64,000 nucleotides of DNA from Siphonodentalium dalli (lineage: Eukaryota; Mollusca; Scaphopoda; Gadilida; Siphonodentaliidae), in assembly GCA_032622095.1 (NCBI GenBank), contig CP136064.1:216890205-216954204 (forward strand). The letters are read 5' to 3'. Positions within the stretch are counted from its first letter, which is position 1; every line of letters begins with the position of its first letter. The position numbers were made by a program, and so were the translations under genes. Shown in pieces: positions 1 through 63,684 of this stretch. The notes under the pieces are model-generated. The model made no database searches and was not told the DNA's origin. It was given only the letters and a program-made list of their open reading frames with translations.

Positions 1-232
1 TCTGCTGCCCTTTCCATCGATGTCCTAGACAATCGTGATGTAAATTCCTGTTCAACAGTTAGTGGATTGTCTCCTGTTGACATGAGAGATGCTACAGGAA
101 CCAGGCTTCCATTATTGGTAACCTTGGTAACAGAAAGCTGGGTCCAGCTTCCTGGGTTTGTTACCGTGCAGGTATAATTGGCGCTCTGAGGTCCCTCGAC
201 TATTGATATCATCTGATTTTCCACTGTTATCA
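1..232 (-). CDS. Exon e43: type-E V-like Ig domain, cut by window edge
   Basis: The phase-1 acceptor TTATTTCAG lies at 233-240. The exon encodes ITVENQMISIVEGPQSANYTC, then NPGSWTQLSVTKVTNNGS, and stays open to base 1. The NYTC and SWTQL spacing matches the E exons at 52254 and 18810. The C-terminal Cys pair is beyond the window. Confidence 0.78.
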
Positions 233-608
233 CTGAAATAATAGAAACACTTCTTATTCATTAGGTCTTTCAATGCAAACGTATTTTGTATAATATTAGA
301 AACTCCCTGATCTATGTGGTGACTCAGTTTGTATAGATGCATAGTGCATAATCAGTCTGATGGTGAAGTGCAGATTGATGTTCCACACAAAAGAGGGAAA
401 CCTGATTGGAGTATTGGGATAATCTGTAGAAATAATTCTTATTCATTATTCAAAACCCAACCAAACATGATCTGCTAACATTTAAAACTAACAAGAATAG
501 TTAGAATACCACACACATCATCATTATCAATATTGGGCAGTTTCGATCTATCTCCTGGTATCCAATCTTAAATGTAATAAGATTTGAAGTTGTAACTTAG
601 CTACGTAC

Positions 609-638
609 CTGGTGGGAAGCTGGTAGTTGTGGAACCCA
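609..638 (-). CDS. Exon e42: very short Thr linker
   Basis: The 30-nt phase 1-1 micro-exon lies between GGTTTTGCAG and CCAG|GTACGT and encodes GSTTTSFPP plus split codons. It has the right position (after A', before E), the right phase, and the same CCACCAG|GT end as e5 and e6. Its small size makes it the least certain exon. Confidence 0.6.
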
Positions 639-1092
639 CTGCAAAACCATAAGAAATGAAAATCAGTATGAGTTTTCAATCAATTGTATTTGATTCATGA
701 TGACATCATATAGAGTCAGATTTGCCATATTAGTTTCAACATAAAGAAAGGAAAATAAAAAAAACCCTTAAGAAGCATATACAAATAGAAAAAAACATCA
801 TACATAGTATATTATAGTACAGAATGAACAGATTGTTGTCAAGGAACATAAAATATGCAGCATAATTATCCACGACCTTCATAAAAAGAGCACTCATTGA
901 TTCTCTGAAAAACAGGACATAATATTTTTGGCTTTCGAGATATTTTATCTGTCAGGATTCAATGTCGGAATCACACAAAATAAATGTTAGGATTTTGTGT
1001 CTTGGCTAAAAACCTGATATGAGATGACGTAAACTATTACACTGTGGTCCAATTGACAAATTTTTTAACTACTTTTCATCCAAACAGCTTAC

Positions 1093-1431
1093 CAGTTTTA
1101 ACTTTCAAAATGGTATCTATATAATTCATGACTCCAGACAGTGGTTCTAATCCAGCATTTGACACTTCACACCTCAGAACAAGTCCATCATCTGATTGGC
1201 TGAAGACATAGGTCAGCTGACTTGTGAGTACAGTAGAGCAGGGCGTGGAGGACTCCGCTAGTGTGGCATTCTGTGTCAGATCGCTGAAGGAGCTGTTATT
1301 TGCTGAGTACAGTTTCCAAATAAGGTCACCAGGTGGATTGCCGACATCAGCAGTGCAGTTCAGAGAATCTGTAGGAGCCCTTCCTGCTGTTAGTGTGTCT
1401 GGTATAGTAACTGCTGGTGCCGATGGCCTTA
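1093..1431 (-). CDS. Exon e41: type-A' C2-like Ig domain
   Basis: The 339-nt phase 1-1 exon reads RPSAPAVTIPDTL, DSLNCTADVGNPPGDLIWKL, STPCSTVLTSQLTYVF, then GLVLRCEVSNAGLEPLSG. It is the sister of e38, one codon shorter. Donor ACTG|GTAAGC, acceptor TTTCGCAG. Confidence 0.86.
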
Positions 1432-1493
1432 CTGCGAAAAATAGATGTGCAGATTTGAAATTATAATAAATAATAACACACACATACATTTAA

Positions 1494-1753
1494 CCCTTCC
1501 ATGACTGGAGCTTCCTGAAATTTTGCGAAAACCATTTGCCAATGCATTATCTTATATATGCGAGTCTCCAATAGGGAGCCTCTCATATAAAAGAGAATAC
1601 ATTGGCCTAACAATATTTACCTTGGCCTTGTAAGCAGTGCATTCTCATATATATGCATATATGGAAGGTTCCCAATCGGAAACTAGCATATAAAGAGAAT
1701 GCCTGGCACATGGTCTTTAATGCTGCACCAGCGCAACTTCCATCATGAAAGGG
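1494..1753. repeat. Foldback MITE, TTAA/CCCTT type (family P1)
   Basis: The ends are inverted: TTAACCCTTCCATGA on the left and TCATGAAAGGGTTA on the right. Inside is a ladder of hairpins built from CATTCTCTTATATATGCGAG and its complement, with TCTCCCATAGGGAG between. TTAA duplication with CCCTT ends resembles piggyBac-derived MITEs. Confidence 0.65.
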
Positions 1754-2329
1754 TTAGCAGAATCCAAGCCATTGAATACATATTGTTGTATACCACAAGT
1801 TGAATACAAGCAGGAAGTACTTCGAATTGACGTTGTTGCCAAGAGCTTAATATTAAGATGCATTTTGGGTGATGCATGTGCAGATAATTAGAAGTTTTTC
1901 ATCAGACTGAAATCACAATAAATTTAGTTTTAATATTAATGGTAGTCACAGTCATGGATTAAACTTATTTGACACCAGGGTGTGGAATAAATACAGAACA
2001 CAACTTGCATAATAATATAGAAACTTTTATCAAACTCGATGCAGATGGCCCATAGTCACATTTCACTCAATCTCCACCTTCGTGAAATATATCCTTGTGC
2101 CATCCACAAGTAATTTGATAAAATATTCTCAATTATGATATGCAGTGTGTTCATTCTATTTATACAGCAAAATAAAAGTGTATTGTTGATATAATCCATA
2201 AAGTACCCCAAGCTGAGTACCATATTGATAGCAAATAAATGTTTTGGTTGTATATTTCATCAGTATGCCGAGTAGAGGAAAGCTGAATGCAAACAGCCTT
2301 TATGAACCAATCTTCAGAAGGACTCAAGT

Positions 2330-2600: not shown

Positions 2601-2726
2601 GACAGACACACTATTAGCAGGTTTGGAAAGGCTGTGGTAGGTTCTGTGAAGATGATTGTTTCAAAATTCTAGTTTGATGTCAATATTATATAACTATAAA
2701 TTCTAAATGTTAGAAGTTGTAATTAC

Positions 2727-3050
2727 CTTTTATGACCAGTTCTCCTGTGGTATTTATACTTCCGTTACCATGTGACACTAAACACTCATACACGCCAATA
2801 TCTTGACACAGTGGCTGGTCAAACAGCACTGTCGCAGTAACGTTAGTAGGGTGGAACTCAGTGGTTAGTGTCGCTCGATTTGCTACATTTGGGCTGACCA
2901 TCTGTAGAAGTTCCGAAACCAGAGCAATGTTCACAGATGAGTGAGCGTGCTTTATGGAGAGTCCAGCGAAGCCTTCTATGTTAGCTGCGGAGCAGGTCAA
3001 CGACACTGTGCCATTGTTGAGAATGGTCTTAGCGCTCCGCATTTCTACAA
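2727..3050 (-). CDS. Exon e40: type-B' V-like Ig domain
   Basis: The 324-nt phase 1-1 exon has VSLTCSAANIEGFAGLSIKH and LCQDIGVYECLVSHGNGS. It differs from e37 at few positions. Its acceptor region (TTTATTTCAG) is copied three more times just upstream, at 3086-3300. Donor AAAG|GTAATT. Confidence 0.86.
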
Positions 3051-3300
3051 CTGAAATAAACAAAGACGGAGCATGTAACATCATTAATTACTGATGATGG
3101 TCTTAAATCCCCACATCTCTATAAATGAAATAAATAAAGACAGAGTAAGTAATATCATTACTGATGATGGTCTTATAGCACTCCACATCTCTACAACTGA
3201 AATAAACAAAGACAGAGCAGGTAAAATCATTACTGAAGATGGTCTTAAATCCCCACATCCATATAAATGAAACAATAGAGATCAGATGAAGAACCAAATA
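3021..3300. repeat. Four-copy 70-74 bp tandem duplication of a splice acceptor
   Basis: The start of exon e40 plus its acceptor (ATGGTCTTAGCGC ... CTACAACTGAAATAAAC) is followed by three diverged copies, with ATGGTCTT at 3023, 3097, 3167 and 3239. The third copy keeps an intact TTTATTTCAG acceptor. Confidence 0.8.
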
Positions 3301-4586: not shown

Positions 4587-4760
4587 ATGGCCCTTTAGCT
4601 GTGAGTTCTGATGGACACATCTTGAAATCTGGGAGGTAGCATTCACCATGCGGACACTGTCTGACATCCATATCAGTCTCGTTATGGCATGTTATATATT
4701 TGCTGCAATCTTCTGGATGGATAATCTTGTTTCCTGGATAAACTCCACTGCAAAATGTTA
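4587..4760 (-). CDS. Exon e39: CBM14 chitin-binding domain
   Basis: The 174-nt phase 1-1 exon encodes VTFCSGVYPGNKIIHPEDC, KYITCHNETDMDVRQC, PHGECYLPDFKMC and ends TAKGP. It is a recent duplicate of e36. The acceptor is ATTGCAG and the donor CCAT|GTATGT. Confidence 0.84.
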
Positions 4761-7393: not shown

Positions 7394-7735
7394 CAGAGAG
7401 CACATTCAGAATAGCATCATGATATAGCTGAACTCCTGGTAGTGGCTCCAATCCAGAACTGATGACCTCACACCTCAGGACTCGCCCATCATCTGATTGG
7501 CTGAATGTATATGTCAGCTGACTTGTAAGAATCGTGCTACATCGTGGGCCCGACTCTTTTATGAGTACAGCAGAATCTGTCAGTATTTCATAGCTACTGT
7601 TATCTGGTGTGAAAAGTTTCCAGATGAGTTGTCCAGCAGGGTTACCAACGTCAGCAGTACAGTTAAAGTCATCATCTGGAACCTTTCCTGCGATGACGCT
7701 GATGGGAATAGTAATTGCTGGTGCAGATGGCCTTA
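7394..7735 (-). CDS. Exon e38: type-A' C2-like Ig domain
   Basis: The 342-nt phase 1-1 exon is open throughout although it has no early Met. It reads RPSAPAITIPISV, DDFNCTADVGNPAGQLIWKL, GPRCSTILTSQLTYTF, then GRVLRCEVISSGLEPLPG. It is the sister of the exon at 1093. The next exon downstream is CBM14 with no linker, E or D between. Donor TCTG|GTGGGT. Confidence 0.84.
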
Positions 7736-7998
7736 CTAAAAATAGAAGGAAATTCTACAATATAAGGTTACTATTTTTTCTTAAATATCCTTAAAATGAG
7801 AAAAAAATAAAAATAAAAAGCTTGTGAATTGAAGCCATATGATCCGGCTTTCATCTTTGACATACATATATATATATATTGGGCATAAGGGATGATTAGT
7901 AAAAAAAGACACAAATTGTGCAGATGGTGCATGGATATATTCCACCAGAAGCAAGAACTCGATTGAATGTAACTATATATCAACATTAACAAGTTTAA

Positions 7999-8256: not shown

Positions 8257-8261
8257 TTAAT

Positions 8262-9000: not shown

Positions 9001-9324
9001 CATCTATAACCAATTCTCCTGTGCTGTTTATACTTCCATTACTGTGTGACACTAAACACTCATATAAGCCAATATCTTGACACAGCGGCTGGTCAAACAG
9101 CACCGTTGCAGTAACGTTAGTAGGGTGGAACTCAGTGTTTAGTGTGACTCGATTTGCTACATTTGGGCTGACCATCTGTAGAAGTTCCGAAACCAGAGCA
9201 GTGTTCACAGATGAATGAGCGTGCTTTATGGCTAGTCCAGCGAAGCCTTCTATGTTAGCCGCGGAGCAGGTCATCGACACTGTGCCATTGTTGAGAATGG
9301 TCTTAGCGCCCCACATCTCTACAA
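9001..9324 (-). CDS. Exon e37: type-B' V-like Ig domain
   Basis: The 324-nt phase 1-1 exon has TVSMTCSAANIEGFAGLAI (first Cys, with Phe where B and E exons have Trp) and LCQDIGLYECLVSHSNGS (extra Cys, Asp, Tyr-x-Cys). It is nearly identical to the exon at 2727 and the same length. Donor GATG|GTAAGT, acceptor TATTTCAG. Confidence 0.86.
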
Positions 9325-13998: not shown

Positions 13999-14172
13999 AA
14001 GGTCCCTTTGCTTCAAGCTGTGCTGGACACATCTGGAATTCCGGCAGATAACACTGATTAGGGGAACACCGCCCGATGTCCATGTTAGTCTCATTATGAC
14101 ATGTTATATATTTGTCACACTCTGATGGATGAACTATCTTGTTTCCTGGGTAAACACCTGTGCAGAATGTAT
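13999..14172 (-). CDS. Exon e36: CBM14 chitin-binding domain
   Basis: The 174-nt phase 1-1 exon encodes DTFCTGVYPGNKIVHPSEC, KYITCHNETNMDIGRC and SPNQCYLPEFQMC, ending LEAKGP. It has six Cys with the CBM14 spacing and an extra fifth Cys. The apparent Cys after GP comes from reading into the GT donor (CCTT|GTATGT); spliced to e37 the codon is Phe. It is closest to the exon at 4587. Confidence 0.85.
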
Positions 14173-15353: not shown

Positions 15354-15695
15354 CTGGCACTACATGTCCAGTTTTTACATCCTCGGATATCTGTAAATTA
15401 TATACGTTTGGATCTCGTGGTTCCATCTGACATTTAACAGTAGCTCCATCAAACTGCGCGGGTGAAGAGATAACACCCTCAGCATAGGCACTCGTTTGGC
15501 ACATGTTTTCAACCTGGGTGTCATATGAATCGGTGAGGGCCACAGACTGGAATGAGTTTGTCCCAATTGGTTGATAGTAGAGTTTAAGGTCTGCCACTCT
15601 GGGAGACCCGACATAACCGTCACAGCTGATCACGATTGGCATGTTCTCATTTTGCTTCACAGAAGGCAGTCGCAAGACAGGAGTTTCAGGTTTGG
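15354..15695 (-). CDS. Exon e35: type-D C2-like Ig domain
   Basis: The 342-nt phase 1-1 exon starts KPETPVLRLPSV. It has PIVISCDGYVGSPRVADLKL, an extra Cys in ENMCQTSAYAEGV and a second core Cys in GATVKCQMEPRDP. Leu-Lys-Leu replaces the C-strand Trp, as in other D exons. Donor CCAG|GTAACA, acceptor CATTCCAG. Confidence 0.83.
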
Positions 15696-18809: not shown

Positions 18810-19157
18810 TTTCAACAATAACTGGTGCAGAATCATTGAAACCAGCTCCACCAGAAAATATAGTACAGATGTGCTCAGAATTATCTTCACAAGTCAACGG
18901 AGAAATCGTCATGACGATCTCGACCTGATGATCTGTGATACTGAATGTAGATTGTGCCCTCATTCTATTTCCGTACGGAGACTCGAAGAACAAGAACCCT
19001 GAAGATGCCAGAGTGGCGAGTGGCACAGTTGTACCACCTGCATGTTTCTGTATCAGTATTATGGACCAATCTCTCGGATACATGACTGTGCATGTAAAAT
19101 TAAGGGATATATCTGTGCCACTGTCTAGTACCGCTCGTGGTGAATTTACTGTCACCG
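18810..19157 (-). CDS. Exon e34: type-E V-like Ig domain
   Basis: The 348-nt phase 1-1 exon has SLNFTCTVMYPRDWSIILI, then SPLTCEDNSEHICTIFSGGAG, with extra Cys, Asp and His-x-Cys in place of Tyr-x-Cys. The donor is GAAA|GTGAGT and the acceptor TTATTTCAG. It opens the second E-D-CBM14 run of the window. Confidence 0.83.
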
Positions 19158-19950: not shown

Positions 19951-20004
19951 CCAGTTCCGGTAGAGTAGTAGTGGTGGTTGGTGCTGTCGTTGATGTCGTC
20001 GTTT
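19951..20004 (-). CDS. Exon e33: Thr/Pro linker
   Basis: The 54-nt phase 1-1 exon encodes TTTSTTAPTTTTTLPEL plus split codons. Acceptor TTCCCAG, donor CTGG|GTATGT. It closes the eight-triplet series and precedes an E domain, as e6 does. Confidence 0.75.
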
Positions 20005-21483: not shown

Positions 21484-21813
21484 CTTGAGAAACTGTGATG
21501 GTAATTTCCGTGGATGGATCCACACCCTGTGCCGGCCTAGCATCACTAATAGCCTCACATCTGAGGACAGCACCATTAAAATCATTTGTAAAAGCATGCT
21601 CAAATGTCGAGGTGAGATATTCACTGCAGTCGCGCCTGACGACAGATGATATTTCTTGCACAGAGAAGTTCGCATACATCACCGATCCAGGTAATTTGAT
21701 TTTCCACCGAAGCTCCCCATTGGCTGATCCCACAAACCCCGAACAGGTATAGTTCTCTGCTGAACCATTTGTGACAGATGTAGGTGCAGAAATGGTAGGT
21801 GTCTGTGTATGTG
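21484..21813 (-). CDS. Exon e32: type-A C2-like Ig domain
   Basis: The 330-nt phase 1-1 exon starts HTQTPTISAPTSV (His-Thr where other A exons have Arg-Pro). It has ENYTCSGFVGSANGELRW, RRDCSEYLTSTFEHAF and AVLRCEAISDARPAQGVDP. It ends TVSQ and is one codon longer than its neighbours. Donor CAAG|GTTAGT. Confidence 0.88.
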
Positions 21814-22515: not shown

Positions 22516-22851
22516 ATTTCAGACTGAGTGATCCTTCTTTCGACATGTTCTTTGAATGAGTCTCGATTGCACATATATAGCTCCCTTCATCCTGGCACTC
22601 TGAGTTAGTAAACGTTAACTCAATTGTCACATTATTTACATTCACATCCATGACTTGTAATGAGATTCTACCCAGGATGGGGTCATTCGGTGTGTTGATA
22701 CCCTGTGGCGGGTAGTCAAGTGAAGCAATGGACACCATGTCAGATGCTCGGATAAGAGATGCTTTGGTCCATATATCAGCATGCATGAACCGACATCTGA
22801 AGACTGATGGCCCTTCTCCCACAAATGCAGGTTCTGTCTCTAGAATTGTTG
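22516..22851 (-). CDS. Exon e31: type-B V-like Ig domain
   Basis: The 336-nt phase 1-1 exon has GEGPSVFRCRFMHADIW (Phe before Arg-Cys), YPPQGINTPNDPILGR, VNVNNVTIEL and SECQDEGSYICAIETHSKNM. It is the last B of the eight-triplet series. Donor AAAT|GTAAGT, acceptor CTACACAG. Confidence 0.88.
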
Positions 22852-23640: not shown

Positions 23641-23694
23641 TCAGTTCAGGTGGCGGAGACGGCGTGGTTGTTGCCTCTGTTGTTGTTTCTGGTT
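23641..23694 (-). CDS. Exon e30: short Thr/Pro linker
   Basis: The 54-nt phase 1-1 exon encodes PETTTEATTTPSPPPEL plus split codons. It is richer in Pro than the other short linkers. Acceptor TTTTCAG, donor CTGA|GTATGT. Confidence 0.76.
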   Translation of the reverse strand, partial: NQKQQQRQQPRRLRHLN

Positions 23695-24255: not shown

Positions 24256-24582
24256 CTTGAATTGATATAGTGATTTCCGAGAATGGATCCACGCCCTGTG
24301 CGCGCCTAGAATCACTAAAAGCCTCACATCTGAGGACAGCACCATTGAAATCATTTGTAAAAGCATGCTCAAATGCTGAGGTGAGATATTCACTGCAGTC
24401 GTGCCTGGAGACTGATGTTGTTTCTTGCACAGAGAAGTTCCCATACGTCACTGATCCAGGTAGTTTGATTGTCCATCGAAGCTCTGCATTGGCTGATCCC
24501 ACTAACCCCGAACAGGTATAGTTTTCCGCTGAACCATTTGTGACAGACGTAGGTGCAGAAATGGTAGGCGTCTGTGGGCGAG
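24256..24582 (-). CDS. Exon e29: type-A C2-like Ig domain
   Basis: The 327-nt phase 1-1 exon begins RPQTPTISAPTSV. It has ENYTCSGLVGSANAELRW, RHDCSEYLTSAFEHAF and AVLRCEAFSDSRRAQG. It is close to the recent trio but distinct from it. Donor CAAG|GTGAGT. Confidence 0.89.
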
Positions 24583-25191: not shown

Positions 25192-25527
25192 ATTTCAGGT
25201 TGAGTGCTCCTTCCTTTGACATGTTCTTTGAATGAGTCTCAATTGCACATATATAGCTCCCTTCATCCTGGCACTCTGAGTTAGTAAACGTTAGCTCGAT
25301 CGTCACATTACTTATGTTCACATCCAGAACTTGTAATGAGATTCTGCTCAGGATGGGGTCATTCGGTGTGTTGATGCCCTGTGGTGGGTAGTCAAGTGAA
25401 GCAATGGAAACCATGTCAGATGCTCGGATGAGAGACGCTTTGGTCCATATATCAGCATGCATGAACCGACATCTGACAACTGATGGCCCTCCTCCCACAA
25501 ATGCAGGTTCTGTCTCCAGAATCGTTG
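25192..25527 (-). CDS. Exon e28: type-B V-like Ig domain (recent copy)
   Basis: The 336-nt phase 1-1 exon has GGGPSVVRCRFMHADIW, YPPQGINTPNDPILSR and SECQDEGSYICAIETHSKNM, ending EGALNLK. The donor is AAAT|GTAGGT, slightly weaker than the GTAAGT of its sisters. The intron upstream of it carries a 775-bp hAT-like element. Confidence 0.89.
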
Positions 25528-27159: not shown

Positions 27160-27213
27160 TCAGTTCAGGTGGGGCAGCAGTCGTTGTCATTTCTGCTGTG
27201 GTGGTTTCTGGTT
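27160..27213 (-). CDS. Exon e27: short Thr/Pro linker
   Basis: The 54-nt phase 1-1 exon encodes PETTTAEMTTTAAPPEL plus split codons. Acceptor TTTTCAG, donor CTGA|GTATGT. Confidence 0.78.
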
Positions 27214-27572: not shown

Positions 27573-27899
27573 CTTGAATTGATATGGTGATTTCCGAGAA
27601 TGGATCCACGCCCTGTGCAGGCCTAGTATCACTAACAGCCTCACATCTGAGGACAGCACCATTTAAATCATTCGTAAAAGCATGCTCAAATGTTGAGGTG
27701 ATATATTCACTGCAGTCATGTCTGGAGACCGATGTTGTTTCTTGCACAGAGAAGTTCCCATACATCACCGATCCAGGTAGTTTGATTGTCCAACGAAGCT
27801 CACCATTGGCTGATCCCACTAACCCCGAACAGGTATAGTTCTCTGTTGAGCCATTTGCGATAGACGTAGGTGCAGATATGGTAGGCGTCTGTGGACGAG
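27573..27899 (-). CDS. Exon e26: type-A C2-like Ig domain (recent copy)
   Basis: The 327-nt phase 1-1 exon belongs to the near-identical trio with e20 and e23. It reads SIANGSTENYTC where the sisters have SITNGSTENYTC, then ELRWTIKLPGSVMYGNFSVQ, HDCSEYITSTF and AVLRCEAVSDTRPAQG. Donor CAAG|GTGAGT. Confidence 0.9.
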
Positions 27900-30749: not shown

Positions 30750-31085
30750 ATTTTAGGTTAAGTGATCCTTCCTTTGACATGTTCTTTGAATGAGTCTCAA
30801 TTGCACATATATAGCTCCCTTCATCCTGGCACTCTGAGTTAGTAAACGTTAGCTCGATCGTCACATTACTTATGTTCACATCCAGAACTTGTAATGAGAT
30901 TCTGCTCAGGATGGGGTCATTCGGTGTGTTGATGCCCTGTGGTGGGTAGTCAAGTGAAGCAATGAAAACCATGTCAGATGCTCGGATGAGAGACGCTTTG
31001 GTCCATATATCAGCATGCATGAACCGACATCTGACAACTGATGGCCCTCCTCCCACAAATGCAGGTTCTGTCTCCAGAATCGTTG
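30750..31085 (-). CDS. Exon e25: type-B V-like Ig domain (recent copy)
   Basis: The 336-nt phase 1-1 exon is nearly identical to e22 and e28; MVFIASLDYPPQG has Phe where the others have Ser. SECQDEGSYICAIETHSKNM is intact. The following intron holds the Mutator-like element, so this B exon and its A partner e26 are 2.9 kb apart instead of about 0.6 kb. Confidence 0.9.
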
Positions 31086-32126: not shown

Positions 32127-32180
32127 TCAGTTCAGGTGGGGCAGCAGTCGTTGTCATTTCTGCTGTGGTGGTTTCTGGTT
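32127..32180 (-). CDS. Exon e24: short Thr/Pro linker
   Basis: The 54-nt phase 1-1 exon encodes PETTTAEMTTTAAPPEL plus split codons. Acceptor TTTTCAG, donor CTGA|GTATGT. It is identical to e15 and e27. Confidence 0.78.
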
Positions 32181-32534: not shown

Positions 32535-32861
32535 CTTGAATTGATATGGTGATTTCCGAGAATGGATCCACGCCCTGTGCAGGCCTAGTATCACTAACAG
32601 CCTCACAGCTGAGGACAGCACCATTTAAATCATTCGTAAAAGCATGCTCAAATGTTGAGGTGATATATTCACTGCAGTCATGTCTGGAGACCGATGTTGT
32701 TTCTTGCACAGAGAAGTTCCCATACATCACCGATCCAGGTAGTTTGATTGTCCAACGAAGCTCCCCATTGGCTGATCCCACTAACCCCGAACAGGTATAG
32801 TTCTCTGTTGAGCCATTTGTGATAGACATAGGTGCAGATATGGTAGGCGTCTGTGGACGAG
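32535..32861 (-). CDS. Exon e23: type-A C2-like Ig domain (recent copy)
   Basis: The 327-nt phase 1-1 exon is nearly identical to e20 and e26, but has AVLSCEAVSD where all other A copies have Leu-Arg-Cys, a single-base Arg-to-Ser change next to the second core Cys. It also has Met in APMSIT. Both core Cys and the extra Cys (HDC) are kept. Confidence 0.9.
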
Positions 32862-33468: not shown

Positions 33469-33804
33469 ATTTCAAGTTAAGTGATCCTTCCTTTGACATG
33501 TTCTTTGAATGAGTCTCAATGGCACATATATAGCTCCCTTCATCCTGGCACTCTGAGTTAGTAAACGTTAGCTCGATCGTCACATTATTTATGTTCACAT
33601 CCAGAACTTGTAATGAGATTCTGCTCAGGATGGGGTCATTCGGTGTGTTGATGCCCTGTGGTGGGTAGTCAAGTGAAGCAATGGAAACCATGTCAGATGC
33701 TCGGATGAGAGACGCTTTGGTCCATATATCAGCATGCATGAACCGACATCTGACAACTGATGGCCCTCCTCCCACAAATGCAGGTTCTGTCTCCAGAATC
33801 GTTG
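33469..33804 (-). CDS. Exon e22: type-B V-like Ig domain (recent copy)
   Basis: The 336-nt phase 1-1 exon has EPAFVGGGPSVVRC, FMHADIWTKASLIRASDM, YPPQGINTPNDPILSR, VNINNVTIEL and SECQDEGSYICAIETHSKNM. It differs from e25 and e28 by few residues (VNINN versus VNISN). The NVT and NMS sequons are conserved. Donor AAAT|GTAAGT. Confidence 0.9.
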
Positions 33805-34839: not shown

Positions 34840-34893
34840 TCAGTTCAGGTGGGGCAGCAGTCGTTGTCGTTTCTGCTGTGGTGGTTTCTGGTT
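34840..34893 (-). CDS. Exon e21: short Thr/Pro linker
   Basis: The 54-nt phase 1-1 exon encodes PETTTAETTTTAAPPEL plus split codons, with Thr in place of the Met of its sister linkers. Acceptor TTTTCAG, donor CTGA|GTATGT. Confidence 0.78.
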   Translation of the reverse strand, partial: NQKPPQQKRQRLLPHLN

Positions 34894-35246: not shown

Positions 35247-35573
35247 CTTGAATTGATATGGTGATTTCCGAGAATGGATCCACGCCCTGTGCAGACCTAG
35301 TATCACTAACAGCCTCACATCTGAGGACAGCACCATTTAAATCATTCGTAAAAGCATGCTCAAATGTTGAGGTGATATATTCACTGCAGTCATGTCTGGA
35401 GACCGATGTTGTTTCTTGCACAGAGAAGTTCCCATACATCACCGATCCAGGTAGTTTGATTGTCCAACGAAGCTCCCCATTGGCTGATCCCACTAACCCT
35501 GAACAGGTATAGTTCTCTGTTGAGCCATTTGTGATAGACGTAGGTGCAGATATGGTAGGCGTCTGTGGACGAG
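35247..35573 (-). CDS. Exon e20: type-A C2-like Ig domain (recent copy)
   Basis: The 327-nt phase 1-1 exon is one of three nearly identical A exons (with e23 and e26). It has ENYTCSGLVGSANGELRW, SRHDCSEYITSTFEHAF and NDLNGAVLRCEAVSDTRSAQG; the Ser in TRSAQ is specific to it. The intron on its upstream side carries a 494-bp TTAA element missing from the sister copies. Confidence 0.9.
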
Positions 35574-36690: not shown

Positions 36691-37026
36691 ATTTCAGGTT
36701 AAGTGATCCTTCCTTTGACATGTTTTTTGATGGAGTTTCAATAGCACATATATAGCTCCCTTCATCCTGGCACTCTGAGTTAGTAAACGTTAGCTCAATC
36801 GTCACATTACTTATGTTCACATCCAGAACTTGTAATGAGATTCTGCTCAGGATGGGGTCATTTGGTGTGTTGATGCCCTGTGGTGGGTAGTCAAGTGAAG
36901 CAATGGAAACCATGTCAGATGCTCGGATGAGAGAAGCTTTGGTCCATATATCAGCATGCATGAACCGACATCTGACAACTGATGGCCCTCCTCCCACAAA
37001 TACAGGTTCTGTCTCCAGAATCGTTG
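36691..37026 (-). CDS. Exon e19: type-B V-like Ig domain
   Basis: The 336-nt phase 1-1 exon has the B motifs with EPVFVGGGPSVVRCRFMHAD (Val where others have Ala), SRISLQVLDVNISNVTIEL and SECQDEGSYICAIETPSKNM. It combines the CRF and LSRIS features of the downstream copies with the TPSKNM of e16. That mosaic is compatible with gene conversion or unequal crossing-over. Confidence 0.88.
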
Positions 37027-38191: not shown

Positions 38192-38245
38192 TCAGTTCAG
38201 GTGGGGCTGCAGTCGTTATCATTTCAGCTGTGGTGGTTTCTGGTT
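38192..38245 (-). CDS. Exon e18: short Thr/Pro linker
   Basis: The 54-nt phase 1-1 exon encodes PETTTAEMITTAAPPEL plus split codons. It has one Ile where the others have Thr. Acceptor TTTTCAG, donor CTGA|GTATGT. Confidence 0.77.
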
Positions 38246-38714: not shown

Positions 38715-39041
38715 CCTGAATTAATATGGTGATTTCCGAGAATGGATCCACACCCTGTGCGGGCTTAACATCACTCAAAGCCTCACATCTGAGGACAGCA
38801 CCATTAAACTCATTCGTAAAAGCATACTCAAATGTTGTGGTGAGATATTCACTGCAGTCACGCCTGGAGACCAAGGTTGTTTCTTGCACAGAGAAGTTCC
38901 CATATGTCACCGATCCAGGTAGTTTGATTGTCCACCGAAGCTCCCCATTGGCTGATCCCACTAACCCCGAACAGGTATAGTTCTCTGCTGAACCATTTGT
39001 GAGCGACATAGGTGCAGAAATGGTAGGTGTCTGTGGACGAG
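38715..39041 (-). CDS. Exon e17: type-A C2-like Ig domain
   Basis: The 327-nt phase 1-1 exon begins RPQTPTISAPMSL. It has ENYTCSGLVGSANGELRW, RRDCSEYLTTTFEYAF and AVLRCEALSDVKPAQGV. ALSD..PAQGV is shared with e14. The donor CAGG|GTGAGT also matches e14 rather than the CAAG|GTGAGT of later copies. Confidence 0.88.
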
Positions 39042-40760: not shown

Positions 40761-41096
40761 ATTTGAGGTTGAGTGTTCCTTCCTTTGACATGTTCTTTGA
40801 GGGAGTCTCGATGGCACATATATAGCTCCCTTCATCCTGGCACTCTGAGTTAGTAAATGTTAGCTCGATCGTCACATTATTTATGTTCACATCCAGGACT
40901 TGTAATGCGATTCTGCCCCGGATGGGGTCATTTGGTGTGTTGATGCCCTGTGGTGGGTAATCAAGTGAAGCAATGGACACCATGTCAGATGCTCGGATGA
41001 GGGATGCTTTGGTCCATATATCAGCATGCATAAACAGACATCTGACGACAGACGGCCCTCCTCCCACAAATGCTGGTTCTGTCTCCAGAATCGTTG
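40761..41096 (-). CDS. Exon e16: type-B V-like Ig domain
   Basis: The 336-nt phase 1-1 exon is a B domain with GGGPSVVRCLFMHADIW, YPPQGINTPNDP, RGRIALQVLD and SECQDEGSYICAIETPSKNM. It carries CLF as in e13 and the TPSKNM ending also seen in e19, whereas other copies have THSKNM. The donor is AAAT|GTAAGT. A 1.1-kb hAT-like element lies in the following intron. Confidence 0.88.
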
Positions 41097-41761: not shown

Positions 41762-41815
41762 TCAGTTCAGGTGGGGCAGCAGTCGTTGTCATTTCTGCTG
41801 TGGTGGTTTCTGGTT
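41762..41815 (-). CDS. Exon e15: short Thr/Pro linker
   Basis: The 54-nt phase 1-1 exon encodes PETTTAEMTTTAAPPEL plus split codons. Acceptor TTTTCAG, donor CTGA|GTATGT. It is identical in sequence to the linkers at 27160 and 32127. Confidence 0.78.
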
Positions 41816-42500: not shown

Positions 42501-42827
42501 CCTGAATTAATATGGTGATTTCCGAGAATGGTTCCACACCTTGTGCAGGCTTAGCATCACTCAAAGCCTCACATCTGAGGACAGCACCATTAAACTCATT
42601 CGTAAAAGCATGCTCAAATGTTGAGGTGAGATATTCACTGCAGTCACGTCTGGAGAGTGATGTTGTTTCTTGAACAGGGAAGGTCTCGTATGTCACCGTT
42701 CCAGGCAATTTGATTGTCCACCGAAGCTCCCCGTTGATTAATCCCACTAATCCGGAACATGTGTAGTTTTCTGTTGAGCCATTTGTGACAGACGTAGGGG
42801 CAGAAATGGTAGGTGCCAGTGGACGAG
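42501..42827 (-). CDS. Exon e14: type-A C2-like Ig domain
   Basis: The 327-nt phase 1-1 exon begins RPLAPTISAPTSV. It has ENYTCSGLVG, LRWTIKLPGTVTYETFPVQE, RRDCSEYLTSTFEHAF and AVLRCEALSDAKPAQGVEPF. A LINE end is inserted in the intron only 18 bp past the donor (CAGG|GTGAGT). That keeps the donor intact but brings a (GAA)n tract next to it. Confidence 0.87.
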
Positions 42828-46493: not shown

Positions 46494-46829
46494 ATTTCAG
46501 GCTGAGTGATCCTTCTTTCGACATGTTTTTTAAGGGAGTTTCTATGGCACATATATAGCTCCCTTCATCCTGGCACTCAGAGTTAGTAAATGTTAGCTCG
46601 ATCGTCACATTATTTATGTTCACATCCAGGACTTGTATTGCGATTCTGCCCCGGATGGGGTCATTTGGTGTGTTGATGCCCTGTGGTGGATAATCAAGTG
46701 AAGCAATCGCGACCATGTCAGACGCTCGGATGAGGGATGCTTTGGTCCATATATCAGCGTGCATGAACAGACATCTGACGACTGATGGCCCTTCTCCAAC
46801 AAATGCTGGTTCTGTTTCCAGAATCGTTG
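46494..46829 (-). CDS. Exon e13: type-B V-like Ig domain
   Basis: The 336-nt phase 1-1 exon encodes TILETEPAFVGEGPSVVRC, LFMHADIWTKASLIRASDM, YPPQGINTPNDP and SECQDEGSYICAIETPLKNM. It shares Cys-Leu-Phe and RGRIA with the B exon at 40761, against Cys-Arg-Phe in the others, so these two are sister copies. Its intron to the next exon (e14) is 3.7 kb because of a tandem-repeat element. Confidence 0.87.
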
Positions 46830-47295: not shown

Positions 47296-47385
47296 TCAGT
47301 TGAAGAGGGGGCACAGTCGTGGTTGTCATCACAGTAGTAGATGTTGTACTAGTCATAGCTGTAGTTGTTGTCGTTGATTCTGTCT
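47296..47385 (-). CDS. Exon e12: long Thr-rich linker
   Basis: The 90-nt phase 1-1 exon encodes about 30 residues, mostly Thr and Ser with a few Met, ending VPPLQL. The acceptor is ATTTTTCAG and the donor CTGA|GTATGT. The later linkers in the series are shorter (18 codons) and end PPEL. The same CTGA donor context suggests common origin. Confidence 0.75.
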
Positions 47386-48075: not shown

Positions 48076-48411
48076 CTGCTACAATAAGGATCTGTTTTTG
48101 TGTATTGAGCACCACTCCTTGTGTGGGATGAACATCTCCAATTATTTCACATCTCAGTACAGACCCATTGTGAACCTCGTAAAATGCATATTGGAACCAT
48201 GATGTATAAATGTTGTTACAATCATTCCTCGACACTGTTGTGGTAGGTTGAACAGGAAGGTCTGCATATCTGTCCATTCCCGACATCTTAAATGTCCACT
48301 TGAGTTCACCCTGTGGTGATCCCACGAGTCCTGAGCATGTGTAGTTCTCTTGTACAGTGCTGCCATCTATGATGTAATCAGGGGAAACAATTTCTGGAGA
48401 TTGTGGTCGAG
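48076..48411 (-). CDS. Exon e11: type-A C2-like Ig domain
   Basis: The 336-nt phase 1-1 exon begins RPQSPEIVSPDY. It has ENYTCSGLVGSPQGELKWTF, RNDCNNIYTSWFQYAF and GSVLRCEIIGDVHPTQGV. Its motifs match the amplified A exons, but it is three codons longer. The donor is GCAG|GTAATA and the acceptor CATCTAG. It forms the first of eight B-A-linker triplets. Confidence 0.84.
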
Positions 48412-48882: not shown

Positions 48883-49218
48883 TTCTCATTTCCAGGGTTC
48901 CTTCTTTCGACACATTCATGGAGAAGAGTTGCACAGCACATGTATATGCTCCTTCATCTTGACAATCAGAGTTTGTGAACGTCAACTCGATGGTCACATT
49001 TTTCAAACTGGCATCTTTGATTTCTATACCGATCCTCCCAACTACCGGGTCGTTAGGCGTTGCTATGCCCTGTGGTGGGAAATTCACTGAGGCAATAGAC
49101 AGTTGGTTAGAGCTGCGTATCAGGGAAACCTTTGTCCATGAGTCGATGTTAACAAATTTGCATGTGATCAGTGATGGACCTTCCCCTACGAAGCCAGGAT
49201 CGATGTTTACTGCAATAA
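48883..49218 (-). CDS. Exon e10: type-B V-like Ig domain
   Basis: The 336-nt phase 1-1 exon encodes a B domain intermediate between e3 and the amplified copies: FVGEGPSLITCKFVNIDSW, FPPQGIATPNDP, then SDCQDEGAYTCAV. The PPQG and TPNDP motifs are shared with all amplified B exons, so this is the likely relative of the amplified family. The donor is placed at AGAA|GTATGT by homology of the exon end (GTLEMR). Sequons NVT and NVS are present. Confidence 0.83.
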
Positions 49219-50411: not shown

Positions 50412-50579
50412 CTGGCCCAGCCGAATCAAAATCTGCTCCACAAACTTCAAATTCTGGAAGGAAGCAGGTGGCCCCAGGACAGGACTGAACAGCAACAGAG
50501 CCGTTACACAGGATATACTTCATACAGTCATATGGGTGTGATATGTTGGTTCCCATGGCAACTCCATCACATTCATCAG
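50412..50579 (-). CDS. Exon e9: CBM14 chitin-binding domain
   Basis: The 168-nt phase 1-1 exon encodes ADECDGVAMGTNISHPYDC..KYILC, then SCPGATCFLPEFEVC and ends SAGP. It has six Cys and the aromatic residues usual in CBM14. The spacing between the fourth and sixth Cys matches the family, and the fifth Cys (ATC) is additional. The donor is CCAG|GTATGG. It sits between D (e8) and B (e10). Confidence 0.84.
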
Positions 50580-50995: not shown

Positions 50996-51334
50996 CTGAT
51001 AGTAGTAAGAACTGATGTTCGACTGAGAGGATGGGCGGCATAACATCAGCATCTCCCGCCACAATCACACATCTGATCAGCGTTCCATTCATATCAGAAG
51101 ATAACATGATCGGCATGGTTACGGATGCCAATGTTTCACACTTATCATCATTGACAACCTGAGTGACCTGATCTGGTATCGTATATGGGAAGAACGTGGA
51201 GGAACCAGCCATAGTTCCAAACAGCTGTAATGTTCCGGCTGTCGGGAAACCAATATTACCACTGCATGATATCGTCTGCTCACTGTTAGGAGCTGGATCT
51301 TCAGGAATTGTCAACACAGGAGTAGCAATCGGGG
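50996..51334 (-). CDS. Exon e8: type-D C2-like Ig domain
   Basis: The 339-nt phase 1-1 exon starts APIATPVLTIPEDP, with TISCSGNIGFPTAGTLQLF (first Cys), an extra Cys in DDKCETLASVTMP and the second core Cys in GTLIRCVIVAGDAD. It is related to A domains but has Leu-Phe where A has Arg-Trp or Val-Trp. The donor is TCAG|GTGAGT. It is followed 416 bp later by the CBM14 exon. Confidence 0.84.
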
Positions 51335-52253: not shown

Positions 52254-52595
52254 CTTTCACTATGATGGCACCAGAAGCATTCAAATTCCCAGCACCTGCT
52301 ACTAAAACACATGTATACATCTCCGCATCACTACACTTCACTGGAGATATCATCACCGTAAGATAAACATGGCTTCTTACAATACCAAATAATGAACCAT
52401 ATCTCCCGCCATGTTGTACATCGAACGAGAAGACACCTGCAGCAGTCAGAGAAGCTATTTGAACAGTCCCATTGGTCATCTCTTTGAGTAGCTGAAGTTC
52501 TGTCCACTCTCCCGGATGAGAGACTGTACATGTGTAGTTGACTGATATGACATTCTCGTTACTTAACACTACTGTTGTAGAATCGACAATCACCT
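52254..52595 (-). CDS. Exon e7: type-E V-like Ig domain
   Basis: The 342-nt phase 1-1 exon encodes a V-like Ig domain. The first core Cys is in SVNYTCTVSHPGEWTELQL with a nearby Trp. It ends VKCSDAEMYTCVLVAGAG, that is extra Cys, Asp, Tyr-x-Cys. The donor is AAAG|GTAAGT and the acceptor AAATTTCAG. With e8, e9, e10, e11 and e12 it forms the one complete module E-D-CBM14-B-A-linker in this window. Confidence 0.83.
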
Positions 52596-54273: not shown

Positions 54274-54360
54274 CTGGTGGTAAGGTCGTGGTCGTGACTG
54301 GAGTAGTTGTGGATGTAACTGTTGTAGTTGAGGTGGAAGTGGTTGTCGTAGTGGTTGTTT
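54274..54360 (-). CDS. Exon e6: Thr-rich linker (second of a duplicated pair)
   Basis: The 87-nt phase 1-1 exon differs from e5 by a silent change in a Thr codon. The acceptor is TTTTTTTCAG and the donor CCAG|GTAAGT. Using both e5 and e6 would give a double-length stalk of about 58 residues with no Ig domain between. Alternatively only one may be spliced in. The next exon (e7) is an E domain. Confidence 0.75.
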
Positions 54361-58360: not shown

Positions 58361-58760
58361 ATTCTTTTGCCCAATTCGATTCAAAATGAAAACACCCGAT
58401 TCGCAGGGCCTTTATAGGTTAAACTAAACTCACTTGATCAACACATTCACAGCGCTGTCATGCAAGCTTGTGTGTGCATGCATGGTCTACATCTTACAGT
58501 AAAATTAGTGTTTCAAACACCTAAATTCTGAGGGTTAGCGCTGACATATCATAGACTATCTAGACTTACCTGGTGGTAAGGTCGTGGTCGTGACTGGAGT
58601 AGTTGTGGATGTAACTGTTGTAGTTGAGGTGGAAGTGGTTGTTGTAGTGGTTGTTTCTGAAGAAAAAAATTTATACTAAAGAATAAGTGGGAGGCCAAAT
58701 TCACATTTATTAGCTAATTACGCTTAAGAATAATGGAATTACACTTAAACATAATTGGCT
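58361..58760. repeat. Linker-exon duplication, copy 2
   Basis: Starts GATTCTTTTGCCCAATTCG, includes linker e5 and ends TAAACATAATTGGCTG. It is the sister of 54080-54700. Confidence 0.8.
58570..58656 (-). CDS. Exon e5: Thr-rich linker (first of a duplicated pair)
   Basis: The 87-nt phase 1-1 mini-exon lies between a clear acceptor (TTTCTTCAG) and the donor CCAG|GTAAGT. It encodes about 29 residues, nearly all Thr, Ser and Val with a Pro-Pro end (...TTTTLPP). Such sequence is typical of an O-glycosylated stalk. It follows the A domain as the linker should. It is almost identical to the linker exon at 54274, and the flanking introns match too, so the segment was duplicated. Confidence 0.75.
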
Positions 58761-59300: not shown

Positions 59301-59636
59301 CTTGAACAATAATTATATCCATTTCATCAAAGAGAACAGTATTAGGCACTGCTGGCTGTGCACTGGTAACCTCGCATCTTAAGATGGAGCCATTGTGTAT
59401 GCTGGTGAAAGCGTACTGGAACGAAGTCGTGTATAAATTGCTGCAGTCTTGTCTTGTTGAGTTAGTCATTTCCTGTGCTGGTAGGCTGACAAAAATTGAA
59501 GTAGTAGCCAGCTTGAAAGACCATACCAACTCTCCTCCAGGAGATCCAATCGATCCGGAGCACGTGAATGTTTCTGCTTGGTTGGAGCTGTCAGGGATGT
59601 ACGCTGGACCAGATATCACAGGAGTTACAGGTCGTG
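59301..59636 (-). CDS. Exon e4: type-A C2-like Ig domain (diverged copy)
   Basis: The 336-nt phase 1-1 exon starts RPVTPVISGPAY. It has ETFTCSGSIGSPGGELVWSF (first Cys and C-strand Trp), the extra Cys in RQDCSNLYTTSF, and the second core Cys in SILRCEVTSA. It ends VQ with a split Glu codon. The motif order is that of all A domains, but the sequence between is clearly older than in the amplified copies. Several N-glycosylation sites are present (NST, NGS). Confidence 0.84.
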
Positions 59637-61464: not shown

Positions 61465-61800
61465 ATTTGAACAACATTGTCGTCTCCTTGCTAAGATTTT
61501 GCTGTGCCATTTCCACCTGACATATATAATCTCCCTCATCCTGACAGTCCGACGTTTTGAAATCCAGTTCCATGGTAACATTATCCATATTGGCATCCCT
61601 AACAGCTAGTGATATCCTGTTAATGACCATATCTTGTGCATGGCTGGGACCCATACCAGGGAAGGCGATGCTATAGATCTCTAACATATCCGAGGATCTT
61701 ATCATGGACATTTTCCTCCACTGTTGAGCATTCACCAGCTTACATGTCGCCAGAGAGGAGCCTTCTGTGACAAAGTCTGACTGTGTATTCATAGCTAACA
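61465..61800 (-). CDS. Exon e3: type-B V-like Ig domain (diverged copy)
   Basis: The 336-nt phase 1-1 exon is a divergent B domain. The first core Cys is in SLATCKLVNAQQW, followed by RKMSMIRSSDML, then SDCQDEGDYICQVEM with the Asp-x-Gly-x-Tyr-x-Cys signature of V-like Ig folds and the extra Cys three residues before the Asp-Glu-Gly. The exon ends in LFK with a split codon; reading into the intron gives a false Cys. It is the least similar B copy in the window and is followed by the equally diverged A copy e4. Confidence 0.82.
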
Positions 61801-61892
61801 CTGCAAATTAGAAATAATAATTAGCTGTACAATCTATGTAAGGGTGACAGAGATGGGGGAATAGGCAAGCAGACATCCATATTCTAAATAAA

Positions 61893-61995
61893 AGGTACTC
61901 AATCCGATCAGACGCTCCTAAATTACTATTTCTTCAGGGGTAAAAAATATTTGATTCGAGTCGAGGAACCCACCCAACAAAGCTCAGAGTGATTT
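61893..61995. repeat. P2 MITE end fragment
   Basis: AAAGGTACTCAATCCGATCA followed by TTACTATTTCTTCAGGGGTA. The second end is missing. Confidence 0.6.
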
Positions 61996-62558
61996 ATGTT
62001 ATATTTTATACTAAAACATCACCATAACCATTGAAAAACATTATATGTAAACCAGATAATAGCTAGACCCAGTGAGACAAAAGATACCCCGGCCACCATT
62101 CAATTGGGCCATATTAACAAATTAGTTTTTTAACAAAAGAATCATTCAGACTAAATTTTGCATGTTGCGAAAATGTTCTATCTAAGGCGAAAATGGTTGA
62201 TAACTCCAAAACGGTGGATGGACCTCATAATCAGAGGTGAATATGTCCCATGGTACTTAATATCTGTGGAAAGTTTGTACAAAAATAACCGAAAAATGTA
62301 GGAATAAAAGGTCAGACAAGGTTGCGTCCAAGGTCAGACTTACAAATAGATGGACAAGATGATTCTTATACATATGTATACCCCCATTACTTCAGTATGG
62401 GTGGTTTTAAAAAATGGTATAAAGAAAGAGAAATGTGCGTATTCCAGCAAAAAATTAAAAGCTTAATGCTTAATTTATCCTTAGCTGCAAGAGGCAAAGA
62501 AAACTCTAAGAACCCTTGGATATCACACTGAAATGGTCCCATGAATCAAATCAGTCAC
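61996..62558. other. Intron between e2 and e3, nothing recognised
   Basis: No coding or repeat structure found. Confidence 0.5.
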
Positions 62559-62726
62559 CTGTAGCTTCTTTGAACTTGTCTTCACACATTTCAAATTCCG
62601 GTAGAAAACAGACCAGACCAGTACAGGTCTCAGTCGTGATGGTGGCATTACATATGATATACTCAAAGCAGTTGTTGTTAGGATGAGCAATCTTCTTTCC
62701 TCGAGGAACTCCAGTGCAAATGTTAT
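62559..62726 (-). CDS. Exon e2: CBM14 / peritrophin-A chitin-binding domain
   Basis: The 168-nt phase 1-1 exon encodes a compact six-Cys domain beginning NICTGVPRGKKIAHP and ending CFLPEFEMCEDKFKEAT. The pattern Cys, then His-Pro...Cys, Tyr-Ile-x-Cys, Cys, Cys-Phe-Leu-Pro-Glu-Phe, Cys matches CBM14 (peritrophin-A), which binds chitin. Compared with the usual family there is an extra Cys four residues after the fourth one. It has the same length as the CBM14 exon at 50412. It lies between D (e1) and B (e3). Confidence 0.82.
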
Positions 62727-63348
62727 CTGGAATGCAAACAATTTCAACACAGTGAAACCTGGATGAGAAACAGCCTACATTTAAGAAAATATTATTGATT
62801 ATCCAAACTCAATTCCCTATACAAGTATGAGTACCCTGCAATGTGTGATTAATTGTTACTACAAAGTGTTAGTCTGAACTCAAAATCACTTGTAAAAGGT
62901 CTCGGTAATTTGATTCACAAGAACACCAGACAATGACGTTGTTGCAACACTCATGTAAATAATTCAAATAACAATTAGTTTATGTGTAAACTTTAATAAC
63001 TCAACAAATTTGAAAACATTGTCCAGGAATAACAAGTTTTATTGACAAGTTACTTTCTAATTGCATGCAAGTTCACAATATATAACTAAAACAAACACTT
63101 TGGAGTTCACTTTGTTAGCAGGATTAATCCTGAAGTGCATGCATATGCAACGCAGCTTGGATTGCATCTTCCTCAACAGGATGTACCAAATAAATTTGTA
63201 TTACCGTGTGCTATTGCCGGGGGTAAAAAAAAATGTATAGAGCTTCATGATCTCTTATAGCATATTGGTGGGTTGTATACTACATAAAACTATTTATTAT
63301 TATTATTATTATTATTGAATCTAAACCAGGATATTATTAGGGACAGAC
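62727..63348. other. Intron between e1 and e2
   Basis: No gene. A short (TTA)n microsatellite lies at 63292-63316. Confidence 0.55.
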
Positions 63349-63684
63349 CTGGAATGATTAGAACTTCATGGTGTGACGTTAGCTCATCTGGAGACGTCAC
63401 ATCTGGAGCTGTAATCACACACTTCAGCAATGTTCCATTGACTGCTGCATCAAGGAATAAATTCAAACTCAATGTTGCTGTGGCGCCACACGAGGTTTCG
63501 TTGTGGACGATGACTGCTTGAGATGGTTGCGTGTATGGTGTGAATGATCCAGCCATAGGAGACTTGCCGAGGAATTGTATGGTGCCAGGAATGGGATATC
63601 CGACGACTCCAGCACATGTGACTGTCTGATCGCCATTCATTATCTCCTGCCCAGATATCTGAATCTCAGGTTGTCCAATTGGAG
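63349..63684 (-). CDS. Exon e1: type-D C2-like Ig domain
   Basis: The 336-nt phase 1-1 exon encodes one Ig-like domain of 112 residues. It opens with APIGQPEIQ, has the first core Cys in TVTCAGVVGYP, an extra Cys in ETSCGATATL and the second core Cys in GTLLKCVITAP. The C-strand position has QFLGK instead of the usual Trp. The donor lies in CCAG|GTCTGT and the acceptor is TCTTAG. It is closest to the type-D exons at 50996 and 15354. It precedes a CBM14 exon, as both other D exons do. An E-type exon would be expected further right, outside the window. Confidence 0.82.

Follow-up and report, generated by a model that had tools for sequence, protein, structure and literature searches.

Immunoglobulin (Ig) domains of the V-set followed by those of the C2-set are found in nectins, JAM, SIRP alpha, Siglecs/CD22 and Rst/SYG-1, and these proteins have one such V-C2 unit each. 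Membrane mucins and Drosophila Dumpy are huge modular membrane proteins with Thr-rich stretches that are proposed to link cells to a chitinous layer; to our knowledge, neither membrane mucins nor Dumpy-like cuticle tethers contain Ig-CBM14 modules. Here we describe a locus of the scaphopod Siphonodentalium dalli, captured in a 64-kb stretch of DNA (the window; GCA_032622095.1, contig CP136064.1, 216,890,205-216,954,204) and its flanks, in which an array of Ig, CBM14 and Thr-rich exons points to a single giant modular gene. All positions are given in window coordinates. In the 63-exon model of this gene each of the 19 V exons is directly followed by a C2 exon, as in the above cell-surface proteins, with the V-C2 assignment judged from the folds of modeled structures of one V and one C2 and with weak Pfam support for V. 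Those proteins are not known to have CBM14 or 19-fold repetition, both of which are present here. A type II membrane mucin consists of an N-terminal cytoplasmic tail, a signal anchor and a Ser/Thr-rich ectodomain, an organization that hydropathy and 15 Thr-rich exons may indicate for this locus. We call its product a member of the giant modular Ig/mucin/chitin-binding proteins.

A sequence-only reading of the window had likened it to the VCBP-type immune proteins. In the portion of the source available, VCBPs are described as having two V domains and a C-terminal chitin-binding domain, with each V domain split over more than one exon and with splicing frame 0 used by every exon (PMC2632668). 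In contrast, the present locus specifies 19 pairs of alternating V and C2 domains, each domain coded by one phase 1-1 exon, along with mucin linkers and CBM14 domains that are internal (five of seven) as well as C-terminal. The VCBP secretion signal lies in exon 1; the predicted N-terminal exons here, including a candidate start exon, would code for an anchor placed internally after a hydrophilic tail. A hyperpolymorphic V region is a further VCBP trait; the recent V copies of this one genome have a nonsynonymous-to-synonymous ratio (pN/pS) of 0.13. As far as that portion of the source goes, exon phase and domain set rule out membership in the VCBPs (PMC2632668). What stands of the likeness is loose, namely the joining of Ig with chitin binding, although the two may work alike if the present protein is expressed in a mucus layer. 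Snail FREPs are molluscan defence proteins that share V-like Ig domains with the locus; in the part of their account consulted, such domains, single or as a tandem pair, are followed by a fibrinogen domain (PMC7588048). Dscam, in turn, is marked by fibronectin type III (FNIII) domains alongside Ig and by Ig exons that are mutually exclusive. The 63-exon model, which was not searched specifically for either domain, contains neither a fibrinogen domain nor a Dscam-type FNIII exon. A review from 2026 on immune diversification in invertebrates, in its accessible part, names VCBPs, FREPs and Dscam, and nothing of a V-C2-CBM14/mucin build was found there (PMC13428168). Among the matches listed from titles and abstract beginnings in the open PubMed Central literature there was no repeated V-C2-CBM14/mucin protein, and nothing in that literature matched phrases pairing Ig with chitin binding. 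The gene may already carry a generic annotation in the source species.

A strict V-C2-spacer order

An exon scan with splice scores resolves the minus strand of the window, read from high to low coordinates, into 43 exons: 28 Ig, 4 CBM14 and 11 Thr/Pro-rich linkers (Table 1). In reading order they spell CXVCTTVCXVCTVCTVCTVCTVCTVCTVCTVCTVCXVCXVCTv; here V and C mark the two classes of Ig exon, X stands for CBM14, T for a Thr/Pro-rich linker and v for an exon that is cut. All but one are complete and symmetric, of phase 1-1, the remaining exon being cut at position 1; none of the 43 violates the rule of AG..GT borders and phase, and their splicing yields 10,612 nt coding for 3,536 residues with no stop. 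This model reproduces the sequence-only reading in its exon and domain counts, its 42 complete phase 1-1 exons and one cut exon with open junctions, and its estimate of about 3,500 residues. Open phase-1 exon candidates of 300-400 nt fall into 28 groups on the minus strand (equal in number to the 28 Ig exons, with no one-to-one mapping made), one on the plus strand and zero to two in 10 shuffles; candidates of the same size on the minus strand give three groups in phase 0 and two in phase 2. Similarly, Thr-rich mini-exon candidates account for 9 of 61 groups on the minus strand, 0 of 49 on the plus strand and zero or one in five shuffles.

The order of the exons goes beyond what the sequence-only reading had claimed. 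Every C-to-V junction has a spacer (14/14 in the window, 18/18 in the whole 63-exon model), and every V-to-C junction is direct (13/13 and 19/19). Because a spacer occupies every junction of the former kind and none of the latter, the repeat unit is V-C2-spacer, with the mucin linker and CBM14 being interchangeable in the spacer slot. For the first CBM14 exon, acceptors at 62774 and 62747 were dropped in favor of 62726, which fits the other CBM14 exons. The window gave no hits from Rfam at gathering thresholds or from a tRNA scan.

Extent of the gene and its candidate ends

The sequence-only reading saw no end to the gene. Addition of 100 kb on each side, however, uncovered putative start and stop exons outside the window: a stop within a C-terminal CBM14 exon ~23 kb below it, and above it a putative signal-anchor exon preceded by a candidate ATG exon. 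Within the 40.6 kb searched, the latter (154908-154997) is the sole phase-0 start candidate whose donor score reaches 6 or more; the putative anchor has a hydropathy of 2.23 over 21 residues. The full model comprises 63 exons over 178 kb (C4:216,867,122-217,045,201), with 18,636 nt coding for 6,211 residues and a single stop at the end. The predicted protein of ~662 kDa without glycans contains 103 N-glycosylation sequons, 38 Ig domains in 19 V-C2 pairs, seven CBM14 domains and 15 Thr-rich exons contributing 1,291 residues.

The genomic data support a single giant modular gene, because the module rhythm runs unbroken through 19 modules over ~137 kb, the internal exons are symmetric, the one candidate start and the one stop lie at opposite ends of the 178 kb, and the window itself offers no convincing exon for either a start or a terminus. 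To this extent the earlier claim of one giant modular gene holds; that all 63 exons enter one transcript is what we infer from the genomic sequence. Support is weakest for the ATG exon, for 82979-83263, for the C2 exon at 112399 and, below the window, for the CBM14-like exon ending at -9788. A SEA-like reading of 82979-83263, made by eye, received no support from Pfam or from a sequence search of the PDB (one match, E 0.74).

Domain assignment and the cysteine pattern

The Ig and CBM14 calls draw on Pfam, on AlphaFold models with PDB fold matches and on exon-to-exon similarity. By itself, Pfam is a weak guide: V-set matches 9 of the 14 V exons of the window at E<=0.1, the best (22.7 bits) being under the cut-off of 26, and C2-set_2 recognizes 11 of the 14 C exons at E<=1, with scores of 30-31 bits for three of these against a cut-off of 21; exons 63349, 61465 and 18810 show no Pfam Ig match. 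All four CBM14 exons of the window matched CBM_14 at E<=0.1 before 62559 was trimmed. A Pfam match together with six cysteines characterizes the CBM14 exons, with 50412, -21659 and the terminal exon above the cut-off; the exceptions are 62559, which is below it, and the exon at -9788, which has a tblastn E of 1.5e-4 only and no Pfam match. In the flanks, BLASTP against the other exons, in sets of 19, gave E values from 4e-7 (V -17698, the weakest) to 9e-27 for V and from 6e-6 (C -19455, the weakest) to 8e-29 for C2. AlphaFold models of single exons, one V (40761) and one C2 (38715), have Ig folds, and the C2 model matches the second domains of V-C2 cell-surface proteins among PDB folds; its search against BFVD returned generic Ig-fold matches only. 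The V and C2 profiles align over 13 columns only. Searches of viral contigs with V exon 33469 and of prokaryote genome contigs with V exon 48883 turned up no relative.

In the window each complete V exon (13/13) and each C2 exon (14/14) has three cysteines, each CBM14 exon six (4/4) and the linkers none (11/11). Across the whole gene, all three cysteines are present in 19 of 19 C2 domains, the extra cysteine is present in 19 of 19 V domains, and 16 of these 19 also have the canonical pair: V 113370, 80286 and 64862 lack both canonical cysteines and keep the extra one. The models put the extra cysteine between predicted strands 6 and 7 in V and between strands 4 and 5 in C2, which, assuming the usual Ig topology, would place the two on facing poles of consecutive V and C2 domains. 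As the extra cysteine occurs in every V and C2 and is kept in V domains lacking the canonical pair, we infer a disulfide between the V and C2 domains; alternatively, it is possible that the extra cysteines bond between chains. The interdomain disulfide of Siglec-3 involving C169, as given in the part of the source consulted (PMC7426717), is a precedent for a bond with a C2 cysteine.

Selection on the modules and their growth

The seven modules running from V 46494 through V 22516 represent recent copies that diverge by 1 to 16% in their exons and include stretches 96-98% identical (e.g., 30561-33026 versus 33289-35738 at 97%). Counted against the commonest codon, with the C2 exons cut to the first 105 codons, these copies have 45 synonymous and 19 nonsynonymous changes in V and 40 and 47, respectively, in C2 (pN/pS 0.38), a difference with a Fisher p of 0.0046, or 0.026 without copy 22516. 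Pairwise dN/dS, the corresponding ratio between two copies, spans 0.07-0.30 in V and 0.20-0.95 in C2, where the two values of 0.95 come from four changes each (one synonymous, three nonsynonymous); the pair C 38715/C 21484, in which 11 differences are synonymous and 29 nonsynonymous, is at 0.83. The V exons of the recent copies are under strong purifying selection; both V and C2 are constrained overall, V more so, and therefore a diversified recognition face on V is disfavored. Diversifying selection on C2 gains no support from its overall pN/pS, despite the single high pairs, and mapping the changed codons onto strands and loops revealed no clear pattern.

The distances of V and C2 are strongly correlated, and hence V and C2 duplicate together; module growth copied both along with their spacer. 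The trees of recent V and C2 copies differ in placing module 25192/24256, which hints at exchange within modules. Identity is 92% between V 9001 and V 2727 (8997-9341 versus 2723-3067) and 69% between their C2 partners, and the 150 bp on both sides of these V exons are at shuffled-level similarity. Exon-limited gene conversion is the simplest reading of this pattern, the alternative being silent-site constraint.

A putative cell-to-chitin tether and competing explanations

Module order, phases, open frame, cysteine pattern and selection on recent copies are read from the sequence; a single transcript, the membrane topology, the disulfide, chitin binding and a tethering role are what we propose on top of these. 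The best explanation, in which our confidence is about evenly divided, is a single gene for a type II membrane mucin-like protein of ~6,200 residues acting as a putative tether to chitin. Charge and composition suggest that its N-terminus lies inside the cell, as a cytoplasmic tail of ~130 residues with RRxS-type sites followed by the signal anchor; this end would hold the cell. After the anchor, long Thr-rich mucin stretches would lead into a shaft of 19 V-C2 pairs, each followed by a mucin linker or CBM14, and the C-terminus would be made up of two CBM14 domains and the stop. The V-C2 pairs could be stiff rods locked by the interdomain disulfide, with the mucin linkers as hydrated joints, and the CBM14 domains, both those at the distal tip and those on the shaft, could grip chitin of the gut/mucus matrix, cuticle, tube or shell membrane. 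More tentatively, and with doubt prevailing, this might be an undescribed class of giant (~0.66 MDa before glycans) type II Ig-mucins, whose V-C2 rods, locked by an interdomain disulfide, rely on it so heavily that some V domains have lost the canonical one, and which anchor epithelial cells to chitin via tip and shaft CBM14 domains.

Several observations weigh against the tether or the gene model beneath it. The start exon, whose choice was guided by its donor score and the likeness of its residues, and the anchor exon are 31.5 kb apart; another gap of 29 kb separates the C2 exon at 112399 from the next, 82979-83263, and because the latter has no Pfam family, two genes are possible. That C2 exon is short with a donor of 2.7, and the Thr-rich exon 74012-75808 has a donor of 1.6. 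Of the 11 Ig exons that lie in the flanks or straddle the edge of the window, the six run through Pfam have no Ig match better than E 0.2, and the V AlphaFold model is fair, with a mean predicted local distance difference test score of 76 and five models ranging from 76 to 40. Loss of the canonical pair may have been a single event, as the three V domains concerned are mutually related. Furthermore, the greater tolerance of C2 than V for replacement could also mean recognition by C2. The same gaps in the upstream flank, with start exons being hard to detect without RNA, would suit a tandem cluster of several smaller Ig-CBM14 genes for secreted or membrane proteins, whose individual start and stop exons the scan had missed. 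We consider such a cluster rather unlikely: signal-peptide start candidates in the window number eight on the minus and two on the plus strand, but three of the eight overlap C2 exons, three are one sequence in recent repeats and two are unconvincing, and membrane-anchored terminal candidates (12 minus versus 10 plus) are near background. Moreover, three of the five largest window introns (46494-42827, 18810-15695 and 30750-27899) lie within V-C2 pairs, four of the five contain tandem repeats or transposon sequence, and the rhythm is continuous over the 19 modules.

The main functional rival to the tether is a multivalent recognition protein of the mucus layer, in which, in the manner of VCBPs, V would bind microbes and CBM14 would keep them in chitin-rich mucus. 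V-type Ig and CBM14 within one protein, the apparent evolutionary fluidity of the module number and the binding of gut chitin and bacteria by Ciona VCBP-C, as reported in the portion of the source seen (PMC4757023), all speak for it. However, the strong conservation of the recent V copies disfavors it, and the exon phases and domain set are unlike those of VCBPs, so that it appears improbable on balance. A lower likelihood still goes to a Dscam-like cassette array yielding many isoforms from modules skipped or chosen: all internal domain and linker exons are symmetric and any module could be skipped without frameshift, but tandem growth of phase-1 Ig exons gives the same symmetry, and the modules carry their own spacers, as serial inclusion would predict. 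Finally, the near-identical stretches could suggest that the central copies are partly an assembly artefact, with haplotypic duplicates placed in tandem. This is very unlikely given that the seven copies diverge to differing degrees in their exons and that one copy has a MULE-type element absent from its sister, albeit a haplotype difference could also explain the latter; the diverged modules would stand in either case.

Mobile elements, repeats and other loci

The MULE-type DNA transposon occupies 28335-30560 (PF10551, E 3e-7; inverted terminal arrays and a 9-bp target duplication); the sister repeat without it is at ~33289. An intronic piece of a gypsy-like retroelement with RVT_1 and RNaseH matches lies at 9506-12404 on the minus strand, and a second intronic one, seemingly of the same family by eye, at -5263 to -1159 on the plus strand. 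About 12 copies of a 164-bp satellite fill 43281-45191 within a V-C2 intron, and a repeat of up to ~240 bp, resembling by eye a miniature inverted-repeat transposable element (MITE), has at least six sites, with matches on either strand (Table 1). Past the 3' end of the gene, open reading frames at -56159 to -55209 and -92036 to -91617 resemble BIR and RING domains by eye (IAP-like). A second giant Ig array is present at C8:144703238-144804590, with 43 Ig_3 matches, all of 45.7 bits and many 1,492 bp apart (150 of 785 candidates scored). In C8:144736000-144745999 each 1,492-bp unit contains two phase 1-1 Ig exons, and neighboring units are 99.6-99.9% identical in five comparisons. This array could be a giant Ig gene with a variable number of tandem repeats or an assembly feature.

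Table 1. Exons of the gene model in reading order, followed by MITE-like repeat sites; positions above 64,000 or below zero are in the flanks
Feature	Position	Strand	Evidence or remark
Candidate ATG exon	154908-154997		donor score and residue likeness to next exon, by eye
Putative signal-anchor exon	123010-123403		hydrophilic Arg/Ser-rich stretch and hydrophobic segment
Thr-rich exon	116582-117307		
V	113370-113726		
C2, short	112399-112674		91 residues, without last strand, donor score 2.7
Exon of no named family	82979-83263		no Pfam match
Thr-rich exon	81434-81685		
V	80286-80642		
C2	78333-78632		
Thr-rich exon, ~598 residues	74012-75808		weak donor, score 1.6
V	64862-65203		
C2-type Ig	63349..63684	-	35% identity to C 50996; no Pfam match
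CBM14, 6 Cys	62559..62726	-	CBM_14 15.5 bits after trimming to likely acceptor, cut-off 22.1
V-type Ig	61465..61800	-	43% identity to V 40761; no Pfam match
C2-set Ig	59301..59636	-	C2-set_2 30.3 bits
Thr-rich linker	58570..58656	-	exon scan, spliced model
Thr-rich linker, duplicate of 58570	54274..54360	-	exon scan, spliced model
V-type Ig	52254..52595	-	exon-to-exon similarity, Pfam run, spliced model
C2-type Ig	50996..51334	-	exon-to-exon similarity, spliced model
CBM14	50412..50579	-	CBM_14 26.7 bits (above cut-off)
V-type Ig	48883..49218	-	V-set 18.6 bits, below cut-off
C2-set Ig	48076..48411	-	C2-set_2 19.4 bits, slightly under cut-off
Thr-rich linker	47296..47385	-	exon scan, spliced model
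V-type Ig, recent copy	46494..46829	-	exon-to-exon similarity, spliced model
C2-type Ig, recent copy	42501..42827	-	exon-to-exon similarity, spliced model
Thr/Pro-rich linker	41762..41815	-	exon scan, spliced model
V-type Ig, recent copy	40761..41096	-	Pfam, AlphaFold model
C2-type Ig, recent copy	38715..39041	-	Pfam, AlphaFold model
Thr/Pro-rich linker	38192..38245	-	exon scan, spliced model
V-type Ig, recent copy	36691..37026	-	exon-to-exon similarity, spliced model
C2-type Ig, recent copy	35247..35573	-	exon-to-exon similarity, spliced model
Thr/Pro-rich linker	34840..34893	-	exon scan, spliced model
V-type Ig, recent copy	33469..33804	-	exon-to-exon similarity, spliced model
C2-type Ig, recent copy	32535..32861	-	exon-to-exon similarity, spliced model
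Thr/Pro-rich linker	32127..32180	-	exon scan, spliced model
V-type Ig, recent copy	30750..31085	-	exon-to-exon similarity, spliced model
C2-type Ig, recent copy	27573..27899	-	exon-to-exon similarity, spliced model
Thr/Pro-rich linker	27160..27213	-	exon scan, spliced model
V-type Ig, recent copy	25192..25527	-	exon-to-exon similarity, spliced model
C2-type Ig, recent copy	24256..24582	-	exon-to-exon similarity, spliced model
Thr/Pro-rich linker	23641..23694	-	exon scan, spliced model
V-type Ig, recent copy	22516..22851	-	exon-to-exon similarity, spliced model
C2-type Ig, recent copy	21484..21813	-	exon-to-exon similarity, spliced model
Thr-rich linker	19951..20004	-	exon scan, spliced model
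V-type Ig	18810..19157	-	33% identity to V 52254, E 9e-23; no Pfam Ig match
C2-type Ig	15354..15695	-	hhalign 99.9% to C profile (profile includes exon 15354 itself)
CBM14	13999..14172	-	exon-to-exon similarity, Pfam CBM_14
V-type Ig	9001..9324	-	exon-to-exon similarity, spliced model
C2-set Ig	7394..7735	-	C2-set_2 31.4 bits
CBM14	4587..4760	-	exon-to-exon similarity, Pfam CBM_14, spliced model
V-type Ig	2727..3050	-	exon-to-exon similarity, spliced model
C2-set Ig	1093..1431	-	C2-set_2 31.0 bits
Short Thr linker	609..638	-	exon scan, spliced model
V-type Ig, cut by window edge	1..232	-	full exon extends to -118 (C4:216890086)
C2	-7517..-7167		
CBM14-like exon	ending -9788		repeat within the exon makes its acceptor ambiguous; tblastn E 1.5e-4; no match in Pfam
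V	-13420..-13088		
C2	-14148..-13810		
Thr-rich exon, ~141 residues	-15783..-15358		
V	-17698..-17369		
C2	-19455..-19111		
CBM14	-21659..-21492		39.1 bits, above Pfam cut-off
Last exon, CBM14 ending in stop	-23082..-22907		35.1 bits, above Pfam cut-off
MITE-like repeat sites	1490-1731, 7996-8260, 21206-21442, 24657-24828, 48622-48844, 53316-53552		

Implications

If true, the proposed protein would represent a further route by which Ig folds have been joined with chitin binding, in a gene structure unlike that of the VCBPs and on the scale of the muscle and cuticle giants. The V domains that have lost the canonical Ig disulfide and kept the extra, probably interdomain cysteine would offer a clean, testable case of a rewired two-domain Ig unit, and the array as a whole is a natural experiment in growth by exon-sized modules.

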